Origin: an uncultured Hyphomicrobiales bacterium
GTDB taxonomy: Bacteria; Pseudomonadota; Alphaproteobacteria; Rhizobiales; Beijerinckiaceae
NCBI GenBank assembly: GCA_903931945.1
Contig: CAIZEI010000171.1
Location: forward strand, 1-64,000
Length of the DNA: 64,000 bases
Reading direction: 5' to 3'
Shown: positions 25,361 to 46,120 of the stretch, piece by piece
Layout: every line of letters starts with the position of its first letter
How positions within the stretch are numbered: the first letter of the stretch is position 1
Position numbers and translations under genes: made by a program
Notes under the pieces: model-generated
Database searches by the model: none
Told to the model about the DNA's origin: nothing
Seen by the model: the letters and a program-made list of their open reading frames with translations, nothing else

Positions 25361-26170
25361 CTAAATCACATAGTCCGGCGCGTTGGCGTCTTCGTGAAGC
25401 AGGCGTGACAAAATCCGCTCTTCAAGCAAGGCCAGATCGACCGACCCGCGTCGGCGTGGGCGCGGCAGGTCAATATCGATGTCAAGGCTGATCTTGCCAT
25501 CGTCGATCATCACAACGCGGTCGGCCAGCGTCAGCGCCTCGGCGACGTCATGCGTGACCAGAATCGCCGTAAAGCGTTCGCGAAGCCAGACGCGTTCCAG
25601 CAATTGCTGCATTTCGATGCGCGTCAGGGCGTCGAGCGCGCCGAGCGGTTCATCCAGCGCGAGAAAGCGCGGACGGCTGACCAGCGCGCGCGCCAACGCC
25701 ACGCGCTGCTTCTGGCCGCCGGAGAGAATGGCGGGCCAGTCGCCGCCGCGATCGCCAAGCCCAACCGCACGCAAGGTGGCCTCGGCTCGCGCTCGCGCGC
25801 CAGGCTGCTTGCCGTCCGCGCCCAGGCCGACCTCAACATTGGCGAGGACCCGCCCCCAGGGAAGAAGCCTCGGTTCCTGGAACATGACGCGGGTGTTGGC
25901 GCGACGGTCGAGGCGATCGCCAAGAATGATAGTCCCTGAATCAGCGATGTCGAGATCCGCGAGCAGGCGCAGAAGCGTACTCTTGCCGCAGCCGCTGCGT
26001 CCGACAATGGCGAGGAACTGGCCAGCGGGCACATGCAGATCGAGCTCCCGCAACACGACCTTGTCGCTAAAACTTCGCGACAGGCCGCGCGCGGTGACCG
26101 AGGCGCCAAAGGGCTTTTGCTCGCGGAAAAGGTGATCGAAGTTCGGGATCGCGGCTGCGGTTGTCGCCAT
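25361..26170 (-). CDS. ssuB: Aliphatic sulfonate ABC transporter ATP-binding protein SsuB
   Basis: About 269 residues with Walker [11 protein letters not shown]-loop [10 protein letters not shown], signature [15 protein letters not shown], Walker B ALDEP and switch His VTHDVAEAL. Sequence style matches SsuB/TauB-type importers. The start at 26170 is preceded by AAGGG. A much longer open frame to 26593 runs into the frameshifted permease gene and is not a real N terminus. It is the last gene of the leftward ssu operon. Confidence 0.93.
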
Positions 26171-26175
26171 TGTTT

Positions 26176-27011
26176 TCAACCCTTGCGTTGAAAGGCGGGA
26201 TGCCAGCCGAGGGAGAGCCGCTCCAGGAATCGCGCGCTGGAATCCGCCAGCTTGCCCAGCAGGGCGTAAATCAGGATGGCGAAGACGACGATATCCACAC
26301 GCATGAATTCGCGCGCGTGCATGGCCATATAACCGATGCCTGATTGCGCGGCGATTGTTTCGGCGACGATCAGCGTCAACCACATCACGCCGAGCCCGAA
26401 GCGGATCCCGACGAAAATCGAAGGCAGCGCGCCGGGAAAAATGACGCGCCGGAAAAGGTCGATATTCGACATGCCGTACGAGCGACCCATTTCGACCAGT
26501 TGGGGGTCGACATTGCGCACGCCATGCAGCGTGTTGATATAGACAGGAAAAAAACGCCCAGCGCGACAAGGAAGAGCTTGGCGCCCTCATCAATCCCGAA
26601 CCACAGAATGACGAGCGGGATCAGCGCAAGATGTGGTATGTTGCGCGCCATCTGAAGCGTCGAATCCGTCAGTCGCTCGCAGAGATGTGACAGGCCATTG
26701 GCGAGTCCAAGCGCGAAACCGACGCCGCCTCCCACAGCGAATCCGGAAAACGCGCGCAGAGCGCTCACTTCGACATTTTCAGCAAGCTCCCCGCTCAGCG
26801 CGAGTTTCCACGCGGCCGCCGCCACTGCGGAGGGCGGCGGCAGCACGCCGGGCGTCAGCCAGCCGAGGCTTGCAGACGCCTGCCAGGCTGCAATCAGCGC
26901 TCCTGGCAGAAGCCAGGGCAGCGCGATTGGCGATAACGCGCCGCCACGAAATACGCACCGTGACGCAAGTCGCGGCGCCTGGGCTTTTTCTTCGATTGCA
27001 AGGCTCGTCAT
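26176..27011 (-). pseudogene. ssuC: Sulfonate ABC permease SsuC, frameshifted at a T7 run
   Basis: The N-terminal part (from ATG at 27011) reads normally through [25 protein letters not shown]. It then goes out of frame at a homopolymer (seven A on the + strand, 26548-26554). The rest ([19 protein letters not shown], then the EAA-like permease segment and a last helix) is intact in another frame down to 26176. Adding one T to the run restores an SsuC of about 278 residues with [13 protein letters not shown] at the junction. Options are mutation, sequencing error, or slippage on the run. Confidence 0.85.
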
Positions 27012-27018
27012 GACGACC

Positions 27019-28173
27019 TCAGGACGCCGCTATACGGACACCGGTGCCGCTTGTGCCAAACTCGGCGAAAGCCTTGCTGCGAAGAACTTTTGACTGAACG
27101 CCGACGCCCAGTTCCGGAAACAGCAGTTCGCCGACGCGGTAGGCTTCTTCCAGATGCGGATAGCCCGAGCCGATGATCGTCTCGACGCCAATGTCCTGAT
27201 ATTCTCGCAGGCGTCTGGCGACCGTTTTGGGGTCGCCAACCAGCGCGGTGCCAGCGCCGCTCCGCACAAGTCCCACGCCGGCCTAGAGATTTGGCGCAAT
27301 GACGAGATTGTCGCGTCTGCCGCGTCCGTGCAACGCACTCATGCGTTGCTGGCCCACGGAATCTGATTGCTTCGCAAAGTTTGCTTGCGCCGCAGCGATA
27401 ACGTCATCGCTGAGGTCGGCGATCAGGCGATCCGCCGCCGACCATGCTTCGTCCTCTGTTTCGCGAACAACGAAATGGACGCGCAGGCCGAAGCGCAGCT
27501 TGCGGCTGCGCGCCTTCGCCTTCTGGCGCACACGCGCGATTTTCTTCGCGACCTGATCGACGGGCTCGGCCCAGGACAGATAGACATCGACATGTTCGGC
27601 TGCGACATCAAGAGCGGGCTCGGAAGAGCCTCCAAACCAGACCGGGAAATGTTGCTGGACGGGCGGAAATCCGAGCCGCCCGCCTGTCACCTTGATATGC
27701 CTGCCGTCGAAATCGACCTTGTTTCCGGCAAGCAGTCCATTGAACACGGTCAGGAATTCAGCGGTGTGGGCGTAGCGCTCGTCATGCGGCAGAAAGATGC
27801 CGTCGCCCGCGAGCTCCGAGGGGTTGCCGCCGGTAACGACGTTGACGATGAAGCGGCCATTGCTGATCCGGTCGATCGCCGCAGCCTGACGTGCGAAATA
27901 GGTTGGAGAGGCATTGCCGGGGCGCAGCGCGGCGAGAAATTTCAATTTCTCTGTATGCGAAGCAAGCGCAGCGGCGATCGCCCAGGGATCGTCGCAATTG
28001 CGACCGGTGGGAATCAGCACCCCACCGAAGCCGAGGCGATCCACCGCTTGCGCGATCTCCTTGAGATAACGGAAATCGGGCGGACGGTGACCCTTCTCAC
28101 TGCCAAGATAGGGGCCGTCGCCGCTGACGGGAATGAACCAGAAGAGGTCGAGAGGCTTTTGAAACGTTGTCAT
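27019..28173 (-). pseudogene. ssuD: FMNH2-dependent alkanesulfonate monooxygenase SsuD with in-frame amber codon
   Basis: The frame starts at ATG 28173 ([20 protein letters not shown]) and shows SsuD hallmarks: [49 protein letters not shown] at 27283-27285 interrupts it at NL[22 protein letters not shown]. The frame continues unchanged to 27019, giving the expected total of 384 residues. Related proteins carry Trp (TGG) at this place, so one base change explains the stop. Without readthrough the last about 88 residues are lost, which should inactivate the enzyme. Confidence 0.88.
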
Positions 28174-28199
28174 GTGAAAGTCTTTCCACCGGGAGGAGG

Positions 28200-29153
28200 T
28201 CAGGAGTTGGGAGTCCATTTCCAGACGATGTCGCGCACGACGATCGGGTCCGGGATGAGACCAAGCTTTTGAAAGCGGTCGGCGACGGCCTGTTGCTCGG
28301 AGGCAATGGCGTCAGTCAGCGGCGAGATTGCGAACTCGGAACGAGCGACAATTTTGCGCTGAATATCGACGGGTATTCCCGTTGCCGCAGCGAACAGGCT
28401 CGCCGCTTCGTCGCGATGCGCGCTGGTCGAGATTTCGGCTTTTGCGAGTTCGTCGTTCACTGCCGAAACGATGTGCGGAAACCTGGTTGTGAAATCGCGG
28501 TTGGCGAGGAAATAGGAATTTTGCCGGACGATGTCCTCGCCCCTGGCCAGTACGCGGGTCCCGGGTTGCGCCTCGGCGATGGCGAAATAGGGGTCCCAGA
28601 TCGTCCAGGCGTCGATGGCGCCGCGCGTGAACGCGGCGCTCGCGTCCGCCGGTTGCAAATAGACCGGCGTGATATCGGCATATGTGAGGCCAGCCTTTTC
28701 AAGCGCCGCGATCGTAACGTTGTGCGCGCTCGACGCCTTGGTGAAGCCGACCTTTTTGCCTTTTAAATCGGACAGCGAGCGGATGGGCGACGCATCGCGC
28801 ACCAGAATCGCCGATGTCGATCCGGATCCCGGCTGCGCCGCGACATACAAGAGATTGGCGCGCGCGGCCTGCGCGAAGATGGGCGGCGCGTCGCCCGTTG
28901 TGCCGAAGTCGATGCTGCCGGAATTCAAGGCCTCCAGCAATGGCGGCCCTGACGAGAATTCAACAAAGCGGACGTCGAGGCCAAGATCGGCAAAGCGCGT
29001 CTCGAACAGCTTTTGCTGTTTGGCGATCAGCAGGACGCCATTCTTTTGATATCCAATTCGAAGTTGCTTCGGGCCCTCGGCGGCCAACGCCGGGCGAGCG
29101 ATTGCAAATGCTGCGCTTGCGATCGACGCGCCAAGAAAATGTCTGCGATCCAT
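28200..29153 (-). CDS. ssuA: Aliphatic sulfonate ABC transporter substrate-binding protein SsuA
   Basis: A 317-residue protein with a signal peptide ([23 protein letters not shown], possibly Tat-like). The mature part shows [37 protein letters not shown] and FGTTGDAPP, typical of SsuA. It is intact, unlike the downstream ssuD and ssuC. It follows the 74-residue small gene by 17 bp. Periplasmic sulfonate capture is the expected role. Confidence 0.95.
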
Positions 29154-29170
29154 AATGCTCTCCTGTTGGC

Positions 29171-29395
29171 TTATCGGCGACGTGAAGCGACCGCGTCAGA
29201 CGCGCTGTATCCGCGATGCCTTTTTTGATGAGCGAGTACGGCGATCTCCGCCTGCCGGGGCGTCGCGAAAATCGCGCCTTCAAGACGGGCGTAGGGCTTC
29301 GCCGCCGAATAGAAGCGGTAACCCCGCCCCTCGGCGATGACGATTCCAGCGGCCCCTGTTTCAATTTCGATGATGTAACTCTTTTCCGTGGTCAT
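29171..29395 (-). CDS. Small conserved protein, first gene of the ssu operon
   Basis: A 74-residue protein (TTEKSYIIEIETGAAGIVIAE, then GYRFYSAAKPYARLEGAIF and PRQAEIAVLAH). It looks soluble, with alternating beta strands and one helix. I do not know a named family, though the context suggests a sulfur-starvation-linked role. The start is firm: AGGAG lies 4 nt before ATG at 29395. That ribosome-binding site can be paired by an anti-SD strand at 29503-29508 in the leader, so translation is probably regulated. Confidence 0.7.
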   Translation of the reverse strand: MTTEKSYIIEIETGAAGIVIAEGRGYRFYSAAKPYARLEGAIFATPRQAEIAVLAHQKRHRGYSASDAVASRRR

Positions 29396-29399
29396 GGCT

Positions 29400-29508
29400 C
29401 TCCTGCCGCCGGCGCGAACCGGCGTCCCTGGTGCTATCCGAAAGGAGGTGTCGTCAGGCGCGGGGGAAGGGACACGCGCCTGTCGCGGACGACATCCGGC
29501 GACAGGAG
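29400..29508 (-). promoter_or_regulatory. Structured leader RNA with SD-sequestering stem and pseudoknot potential
   Basis: On the leftward RNA, CTCCTGTCGCCGG (29508 to 29496) can form 13 consecutive pairs, one a G-U wobble, with CCGGCGGCAGGAG (29412 to 29400), hiding the Shine-Dalgarno of the 74-residue gene. A competing hairpin, CGCCGG/CCGGCG (29424-29419 with 29412-29407), uses part of the same strand. Inside lies a long hairpin (TGTCGT/ACGACA plus CAGGCGCG/CGCGCCTG). Its loop GTCCCT (29473-29468) is complementary to downstream AGGGAC (29429-29424). A second anti-SD, CACCTCCTTT, lies at 29450-29441. Confidence 0.65.
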
Positions 29509-29561
29509 AAGACGGAAATTGGCGAGGCGATTTCAGGCCGTTCGGGGCAAGCGTTGGTCAT
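29454..29561 (-). CDS. Putative Cys-containing leader peptide of the ssu operon
   Basis: A 35-codon frame starts at ATG 29561 with GGAG 8 nt upstream and ends with TGA at 29456-29454. The peptide has three Cys codons, in NACPER, FSCRRM and GACPFPR. The second Cys codon (TGT) lies inside the CTCCTGTCGCCGG strand that can hide the next gene's Shine-Dalgarno. A ribosome slowed there for lack of Cys-tRNA would keep that site open. This is an attenuation model inferred from sequence only. The peptide itself matches no family I know. Confidence 0.45.
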   Translation of the reverse strand: MTNACPERPEIASPISVFSCRRMSSATGACPFPRA

Positions 29562-29687
29562 GGTTCCGACTCCAGCAAGGAGCCCACGAACTCCCTTCGT
29601 GGCGCTTTTAGCATTTGTTGACGCGGCGCAAGCTGCTCAATCAAAATCCGCGACTGGTCGGCCTTTTTAATTCCGATCAGTTTAGTA

Positions 29688-29715
29688 AGAATAAGAGACG
29701 CCGAGAAATTGTCAA
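29688..29715 (-). promoter_or_regulatory. Sigma-70-like promoter of the ssu operon
   Basis: Reading leftward, TTGACA (29715-29710) and TATTCT (29693-29688) are separated by 16 bp. Transcription would start near 29681, about 120 nt before the leader ORF. The sequence just after (CTAAACTGATCGGAATT) is AT-rich and might bind a sulfur regulator, but I cannot assign one. Confidence 0.65.
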
Positions 29716-30022
29716 GTGCGGAAGCCTCAATTTCAGCGCGGTCGTGCGATTTTTTTTCGCGCGCGGAACGAGTCACGGCGCGCAAAGCCGCGTTGGTCAA
29801 GGCCCATGCGCGTGGACGAACAAAAGGAAGAGCGGGATAACCTGCGACTCTGCACGTTCGCGTCCCAAAAAACAGCCGGATCGGCAATGTCCAACCGTCG
29901 CCGGAGTTGGATCGTGAATTGTGGTCATGACGCTCGCTTGCCAAATCTCCCGCGCCGGTTCTATCCTGCCGCAAATATCGTCGGCGCCTGAAGCGAGCGT
30001 CTGACTGCAGGGAGGATGCGCG
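29716..30022. other. Intergenic region between the divergent ssu and GMC operons
   Basis: About 300 bp without a convincing gene. It holds a T8 run near 29750 and must contain the rightward promoter of the gluconate-dehydrogenase-like pair. The candidate TTGCCA / CTATCC around 29938-29966 is weak. A leftward open frame reaching from here into the leader is judged a chance frame. Confidence 0.4.

Positions 30023-46045: not shown

Positions 46046-46120
<75 letters not shown>

Follow-up and report, generated by a model that had tools for sequence, protein, structure and literature searches.

Here, we examined the leader of a sulfonate (ssu) operon in a 64,000-nucleotide stretch of DNA from an uncultured Hyphomicrobiales bacterium (hereafter, the window). 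This leader is probably a two-input sulfur sensor that combines a SAM-II-like aptamer with a leader peptide containing Cys codons. We lean, with less assurance, towards the broader reading that such aptamers form a new SAM-II-type subclass, found almost only in Alphaproteobacteria, which gates a Cys-sensing leader peptide such that the sulfur regulon would be subject to a joint decision on S-adenosylmethionine (SAM) and Cys-tRNA, and within which a subgroup carrying G in place of A47 may differ in ligand. Sequence comparison gives good support for the existence of both the aptamer family and the Cys-rich open reading frame (ORF) and for their spread. Each half of the leader embodies a known principle; in the open-access literature searched, we found no description of a SAM-II-type element paired with a Cys leader.

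On the minus strand, the leader spans from a promoter-like site to the start of the small-protein gene at 29395 (Table 1). The initial annotation had described this region as a candidate Cys-responsive attenuator of the sulfonate operon, and much of what it listed was borne out, namely, the promoter, with TTGACA (29715-29710) and TATTCT (29693-29688) separated by 16 nt; the 35-codon ORF with three Cys codons, MTNACPERPEIASPISVFSCRRMSSATGACPFPRA; the 13-nt strand complementary to the Shine-Dalgarno (SD) region; and the competing hairpins, CCTGTCGC/GCGACAGG (29506-29499 and 29486-29479) and CGCCGG/CCGGCG. A consensus scan of 29150-29900 yielded 2 promoter-like sites against a shuffle mean of 0.2. 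The SD that had been ascribed to the first ssu gene instead serves the 74-codon small-protein gene, which precedes ssuA. Two further proposed parts, the complementarity between GTCCCT (29473-29468) and AGGGAC (29429-29424) and the 16S-like CACCTCCTTT (29450-29441), are present in the window, but CACCTCCTTT was found in none of the 8 relatives compared, and GTCCCT and AGGGAC occurred together only in L002; because of this poor conservation, both are probably incidental, and we set them aside as functional parts. The aptamer element was not described, even though it lies within the annotated interval, upstream of the ORF.

Table 1. Coordinates of the leader, its candidate regulatory parts and the downstream operon in the window
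Feature	Position	Strand	Basis
Sigma-70-like promoter, TTGACA-16-TATTCT	29688..29715	-	Consensus match only
SAM-II-like aptamer with inserted hairpin, whole conserved element	29579..29656	-	blastn; RF00521, 21.7 bits; own model R1, 90.8 bits (window is one of the 12 sequences used to build R1)
P1 5' strand, CGCGG	29648..29652	-	Alignment
Loop 1 with U-rich third strand (SAM-II U10-U12), GATTTTGA	29641..29648	-	UUU kept in 88/89
P2a 5' strand in loop 1, GAGC	29635..29638	-	Pairing permutation tests
P2 5' strand, CTTGC (SAM-II U20 U21 G22 C23 in TTGC)	29628..29632	-	Alignment
P1 3' strand, CCGCG	29622..29626	-	Alignment
P2 3' strand, GCTAA (SAM-II G42 C43 U44 A45 A46; next A = A47)	29608..29612	-	Alignment
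P4 inserted hairpin, CCACGAA/TTCGTGG	29584..29602	-	6/7 pairs changed on both sides
GCTCC, pairs with loop 1 (P2a) or leader Shine-Dalgarno	29579..29583	-	Permutation tests
Leader-ORF Shine-Dalgarno, GGAG	29570..29573	-	Sequence
35-codon leader ORF, Cys codons 5, 20 and 30	29454..29561	-	ORF calling
Anti-Shine-Dalgarno strand, CTCCTGTCGCCGG, containing Cys codon 20	29496..29508	-	Complementarity, accessibility, comparison of loci
GCGACAGG, competitor for the anti-Shine-Dalgarno strand	29479..29486	-	Sequence
Hairpin CGCCGG/CCGGCG directly before Shine-Dalgarno	29409..29424	-	Sequence, folding
CCGGCGGCAGGAG, partner of the anti-Shine-Dalgarno strand (Shine-Dalgarno AGGAG, 29404-29400)	29400..29412	-	Sequence, comparison
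74-codon small-protein gene, first cistron	29171..29395	-	No Pfam or NCBIfam family found
ssuA, aliphatic sulfonate binding protein	28200..29153	-	Above NCBIfam cut-off
ssuD-like alkanesulfonate monooxygenase	27283..28218	-	Profile 1-287 of 346, below cut-off
ssuC-like + ssuB-like region	25361..27011	-	Below NCBIfam cut-offs

As a whole, the window leader folds only slightly better than its shuffles (z -1.09; 30 of 200 shuffles at least as good), and both the minimum-energy and the centroid structures hold the SD of the first cistron in a long helix. The 1:2 hairpin is a possible default ON state, although the predicted equilibrium fold favours a blocked SD instead. A simple consensus scan of 29150-29900 detected no terminator in the leader, the sole terminator-like site (29896-29879; 1.3 expected by chance) being located upstream of the promoter, and a terminator mechanism was rejected for the window because the scan placed no such site between the promoter and the first cistron.

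The aptamer falls below the thresholds of existing models. An Rfam search, which the initial annotation had proposed with an already described riboswitch as the outcome adverse to its attenuator, returned no aptamer in the window at the gathering level, the only match being a tRNA gene (46049-46120, minus strand). At a permissive threshold, the best-scoring match in the leader region was SAM_alpha (RF00521; 29587-29661, 21.7 bits, E 0.02, gathering cut-off 36), which is in part the adverse outcome that had been foreseen. In a scan of the window's own genome, RF00521 recovered this element with an E of 0.026, along with a canonical SAM-II copy (56.4 bits) preceding an O-succinylhomoserine sulfhydrylase gene. 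None of the 48 variant loci scanned (15 + 15 + 18) reached the RF00521 cut-off, the best in the two sets of 15 being L073 with 30.4 bits.

When the leader was compared by blastn with 101 genomes, its own included, matches were obtained in 23, and the most widely shared segment was the aptamer element. With a threshold of E 0.1, the covariance model R1 had matches in 130 of 397 genomes of the order; among the matches listed, 87 in 79 of the 397 genomes were strong (at least 38.5 bits) and separated by a gap from the next score, 31.9, with the weaker matches including canonical SAM-II (e.g., G419 C72, 22.6 bits with R1 vs 83.6 with RF00521). RF00521 exceeded its own cut-off in 301 of 397 order genomes drawn in the same way. 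At the class level, R1 matched 58 of 289 genomes (E 0.001), and at the phylum level 14 of 299, two of which, scoring about 29 bits, were outside the class. A pattern scan likewise found the element in Sphingomonadales, Acetobacteraceae and Azospirillum; among the matches listed (at least 120 stretches from named genomes), which do not translate into frequencies, were Methylobacterium, Microvirga, Bosea, Chelatococcus, Azospirillum, Niveispirillum, Inquilinus, Roseomonas, Novosphingobium, Sphingomonas, Sphingopyxis and others. For one of the locus sets, 92 of 99 matches were taken, those left out (L025, L027, L028, L038, L039, L050 and L067) each being score-equal to an included locus. Some genomes carry at least two copies of the element, at times less than 10 kb apart (L170 and L202 on one contig; G424; G327 C18), and L131, from a Beijerinckiaceae bacterium, is identical to L003, from the window's genus, over the stretch compared.

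Comparison of 89 distinct elements found by BLAST or R1 revealed a covarying structure around a conserved core. In their alignment, which was fitted to the structure being tested, 94.4% of the cells are paired, both partners change in 7 of the 12 pairs, and the covariation score, 0.246, compares with 0.098 in shuffled alignments and at most 0.045 when the structure is slid. The core TTGC...GCTAA is present in 88 of the 89 elements, as is the UUU before it. The SAM pocket of SAM-II is formed by U10-U12, U20-C23 and G42-A47, according to the accessible text of PMC3764141. At position 47, where the A of SAM-II touches the amino-acid end of SAM, A is found in 79 and G in 10 of the 89 elements, with A in the window; in a larger set of 184, the counts are 164 A, 18 G and 2 U, and loop-3 CAA is kept in 177. 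Because the pattern scan fixed part of the core and the 184-element set required the core motif, core conservation in these sets is partly built in.

The departure from SAM-II concerns P2a, which does not directly follow the P2 core in the variant but sits behind P4, a hairpin inserted after the core. The P2a pairs include GGAGC/GCUCC, GGGAA/UUCCC, GAAG/CUUC, GGGGC/GCCCC and GAGAU/AUCUC, and P2a pairing (10.26 vs 9.57 +/- 0.17 permuted) exceeds 1000 of 1000 permutations; the core expression used in this test retained 210 of 212 loci (L111 and L216 were lost), 187 of them with a recognisable P4 and 159 unique. The strand after P4 also pairs with the leader SD (11.63 vs 10.58 +/- 0.20), exceeding 500 of 500 permutations in 105 unique rows from which Sphingomonadales were left out. 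Both alternative pairings reach the threshold in 59 of these 105 rows, and in 47 of the 59 they share at least 3 nt.

It is unlikely, in our estimation, that the aptamer, or its subgroup with A47 replaced by G, has changed ligand and senses another sulfur metabolite. Loop 3 is shorter than in canonical SAM-II, A47 is replaced in 20 of the 184 elements, and inosine at the equivalent position of SAM-V is reported to cause a severe loss of SAM binding (accessible text of PMC6061858), but the other contacts are kept, and the window retains A47. For the subgroup itself (18 of 184), in which GCTAAA is replaced by GCTAAG (L089, L091, L092, L094, L095, L114, L142, L192, L225, L229 and others), an altered ligand or affinity is possible.

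At the other end of the leader, the ORF can form an unbroken duplex of up to 15 pairs, G-U included, with the final 32 nt; of 2000 dinucleotide shuffles, 3 reached 13 pairs or more. Both the window's genus and a second family have the strand CTG[TC]C[GA]CCGG, in which the Cys codon lies, and its pairing partner CCGG[CT]G[GA]CAG in the start region of the next gene. Across 11 loci, there are five distinct strand pairs, in which one pair appears as U-G, C-G or U-A and another as G-C or A-U, with a G-A mismatch at the end of one strand pair; the search pattern admits only the changes counted here, and in L066 and L074 the first strand was found without the second. Within the genus, the window's internal Cys codon (in FSCRR) recurs in the leader ORFs of L002, L003 and L005, and counterparts are present in L024, L026, L030, L031, L033 and L034 of another family; in L004, also from the window's genus, the RNA strands are kept and no matching ORF was found.

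In silico, making 30 nt at the conserved Cys codon unpaired rendered the SD region more accessible in all five loci tested, which had been selected because they possess the anti-SD strand: from 0.00 to 0.21 in the window and, in the others, from 0.00 to 0.62, 0.00 to 0.50, 0.20 to 0.42 and 0.25 to 0.50 (in L030, the site is GCAGC, not a good SD). Blocking the stop codon in these five loci produced no opening (at most 0.02 above base), and blocking other Cys codons had no effect except in L005, which has three closely spaced Cys codons. Extended to 47 loci from many families, blocking of the last Cys codon had no general effect (0.284 to 0.298; random-block control 0.311), and the energy of the leader-SD duplex over 53 loci (-26.2 vs -25.3 +/- 0.43) was reached by at least 1 of 60 permutations. 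These 53 and 47 loci were drawn from 60 with the small protein, the blocking test also requiring Cys within the last 12 residues, and both the SD window and the ribosome footprint were crude. Given these null results, a general Cys-codon/SD switch in all families was set aside; either other lineages work differently or the tests are too crude. A hairpin just before the small-protein SD is in modest excess, with 42 of 60 loci scoring at least 9 compared to 42% of mononucleotide shuffles. In L024, L026 and L030, this hairpin is followed by a terminator-like run of 4-6 T beside the ATG, and the Cys strand could have a different role there.

Thus, the proposed attenuator retained its Cys codon counterparts, its compensated helix changes and the response to blocking in all five chosen loci, but not a general effect over 47 loci or a duplex energy beyond the reach of permutation. 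It would be improbable for Cys-responsive attenuation to be the whole of the mechanism, with the upstream element being a SAM-II relic or a ligand-free structural element. The conserved anti-SD helix and Cys codon would fit, as would L266 and L286, in which a Cys-rich leader ORF and the small protein occur and the 330 nt preceding the small-protein gene contain no aptamer core; nevertheless, no other part of the leader is as widely shared as the aptamer, which keeps the SAM-contact positions and shows strong covariation. The data fit an aptamer together with a leader peptide better, and Cys attenuation is probably one half of a two-input leader, the other half being the SAM-II-like aptamer directly upstream of the ORF.

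Among 200 unique regions, a short SD-led ORF follows the element in 142 of the 167 that are non-Sphingomonadales, against 51 of 167 on average in shuffles, and is lacking in the other 25 of the 167 and in 2 of the 33 Sphingomonadales-type regions. Cys occurs within the last six codons of 110 of the 142 ORFs (77%; shuffle mean 17.8%, maximum 32.1%) and makes up 9.5% of leader-ORF residues outside Sphingomonadales, compared to 3.3% in shuffles. Recurrent peptide tails include CCCCCC, CCCR, CRR and CCMCC; in the comparison of tails, the rule for choosing the ORF failed at a few loci, e.g., L004, L013 and L065. In Sphingomonadales-type loci, a group set by hand with about a dozen of L210-L249 assigned by resemblance of the element, terminal-region Cys is found in 7 of 31 ORFs, and Cys accounts for 1.6% of residues. 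Given that these loci have the aptamer and lack the Cys leader, the two parts are separable. In seven of them (L151, L173, L203, L205, L214, L237 and L239), another small ORF, whose motif resembles LPHPSWR...FWxRLGL, comes after the element.

No short ORF with a Cys close to its end was found in the 13 canonical SAM-II loci checked, of which one comes from the window's own genome and the other 12 were among the best-scoring: 12 run into a long ORF, which in three loci checked by family search is O-succinylhomoserine sulfhydrylase (other downstream genes were assigned by resemblance), and L119 has an ORF of 17 codons whose sole Cys is at position 5. That a SAM riboswitch acts alone, with the Cys-rich ORF as a by-product of the strand TGTCGCCGG kept for pairing with the SD region, is the least probable reading, for although it accommodates the Sphingomonadales-type loci that keep the aptamer without a Cys ORF and the coincidence of window-type Cys-Arg-Arg codons with the pairing strand, pairing alone does not predict the use of both TGT and TGC in Cys tracts of varying length, up to six in L094, the position of Cys near the ORF end (77% vs 18% in shuffles), or the change of CRR to CHR in L024 with a compensating base change and Cys retained.

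The first cistron after the element is often a small protein of about 60-100 residues with a motif like IIEI..AAGI....G.RFF.A.....LEG..F....AERAAR, for which the window copy has no family in Pfam or NCBIfam. It was found downstream in 60 of 92 loci by tblastn and, with a profile, in 55 of 120 named loci (out of at least 120 listed), none of them Sphingomonadales-type, so that the peptide and the small protein tend to co-occur. The alignment of this family has 39 rows, miscut fragments having been left out. A separate search for the small protein matched 148 of 397 order genomes, and some of its loci have neither the aptamer nor a clear Cys ORF. In L267, L269, L270, L274, L285 and L288, with the small protein and without the aptamer core or the shared Cys ORF, a different conserved block, like CATAAAACGGATGAGGTCCCGGCGTAC...TTCGGGGTGGAAAC, is located about 130 nt upstream of the small-protein gene.

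The genes farther downstream point to sulfur metabolism in many of the loci examined. In the window, the operon is indeed a sulfonate operon, as annotated, with SsuA above its NCBIfam cut-off and parts of SsuD, SsuC and SsuB below theirs; within 25361-28218 on the minus strand, the ssuD match covers profile positions 1-287 of 346 and ssuC-like sequence appears in two overlapping frames, and the operon may contain frameshifts or assembly errors. Genes similar to the window's own ssuA and ssuD lie downstream in several loci (tblastn). When 49 downstream ORFs were scanned against NCBIfam, 19 matched families of sulfur acquisition or metabolism, 20 had no family and 10 had other functions, including a GGDEF/EAL protein, a transaminase, a molybdate binding protein and a TonB receptor. 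The sulfur group includes sulfate binding protein (L003, L092, L061, L114, L229), taurine binding protein (L068), serine acetyltransferase (L053), MetQ type (L076, L143), homocysteine synthase (L065), SufS-type cysteine desulfurase (L089), taurine-dioxygenase-like (L137, L176), MetN-like (L172, L155), MsuE-type FMN reductase (L170, L215), SsuA (L215) and CysD (L190), although several of these matches, including the taurine-dioxygenase-like and MetN-like ones, L076 and L170, are below the curated cut-off. Because the limits were strict (E 1e-20 to 1e-40) and the choice of ORFs in this GC-rich DNA was crude, the absence of a family is weak evidence. Since sulfur genes make up 19 of the 49 neighbours scanned, not most of them, we place the odds of both the two-input explanation and the new-subclass reading slightly lower than we otherwise would.

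For the two-input leader, we infer the following course of events from the conserved sequences. The SAM-II-like pseudoknot, with P4 between the P2 core and P2a, probably binds SAM and would control ribosome entry at the short leader ORF, the strand after P4 pairing either with aptamer loop 1 or with the leader SD. A ribosome held up at Cys codon 20 would, in the window's genus, cover the anti-SD strand, and the start of the next cistron, the small-protein gene followed by the ssu genes, would open. Sulfur supply would be read at two points, as SAM and as Cys-tRNA, ahead of operon expression. The SAM step may have either sign. In L114, L260 and L276, GCTAAGGAG runs into the leader ATG, and the P2 strand adjoins the leader SD; therefore, SAM should block leader translation, as these straight GCTAAGGAG-ATG versions suggest. 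In the P4 type, a SAM-stabilised P2a would instead free leader translation. Either sign can provide a sensible logic, with different default states.

If this model is correct, a metabolite-binding RNA and an amino-acid-sensing leader peptide would act as one gate, and sulfur operons of many Alphaproteobacteria would be under an RNA control missed by current Rfam models in the loci scanned. The natural variants, with the aptamer alone, the peptide alone or both, constitute a series for studying how such a gate evolves.

Several described systems share one feature or another with this leader. Cys-responsive short ORFs are known in mycobacteria and other Actinobacteria (Canestrari 2020, via PMC9031893 and PMC13236596; PMC1262725) and, as far as the accessible texts go, resemble the present ones in being short, in carrying runs of Cys codons and in preceding cysteine genes, but belong to another phylum, are leaderless in M. 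smegmatis and are described with no mention of an aptamer. The LEU element of Actinobacteria differs in responding to leucine and in its pseudoknot, as presented in the accessible part of PMC1262725. The uORFC-8-2 motif is likewise an alphaproteobacterial upstream ORF with tandem Cys codons; however, the accessible text of PMC8632094 reports it exclusively upstream of cysS in Rhodobacterales, accompanied by a terminator-like U run, and mentions no aptamer. In the ppe2 B12 riboswitch of M. tuberculosis, a translated leader under riboswitch control also decides the expression of the next gene, whereas the aptamer is a B12 class IIb variant, and the accessible text of PMC11260477 mentions no amino-acid-sensing codon run. 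SAM-II itself (RF00521, SAM_alpha; RF01726) shares with the variant P1, the U-rich third strand, the UUGC/GCUAA P2 core, loop-3 CAA and the occurrence in Alphaproteobacteria. The targets given for SAM_alpha in the accessible text of PMC4239095 are metY, metA, metX, hom, metC and metW. The variant, by contrast, scores below the Rfam cut-off in the loci scanned, has P4 between the P2 core and P2a and a shorter loop 3, and is followed by a Cys leader ORF and, in many loci examined, by genes for sulfur uptake or assimilation.
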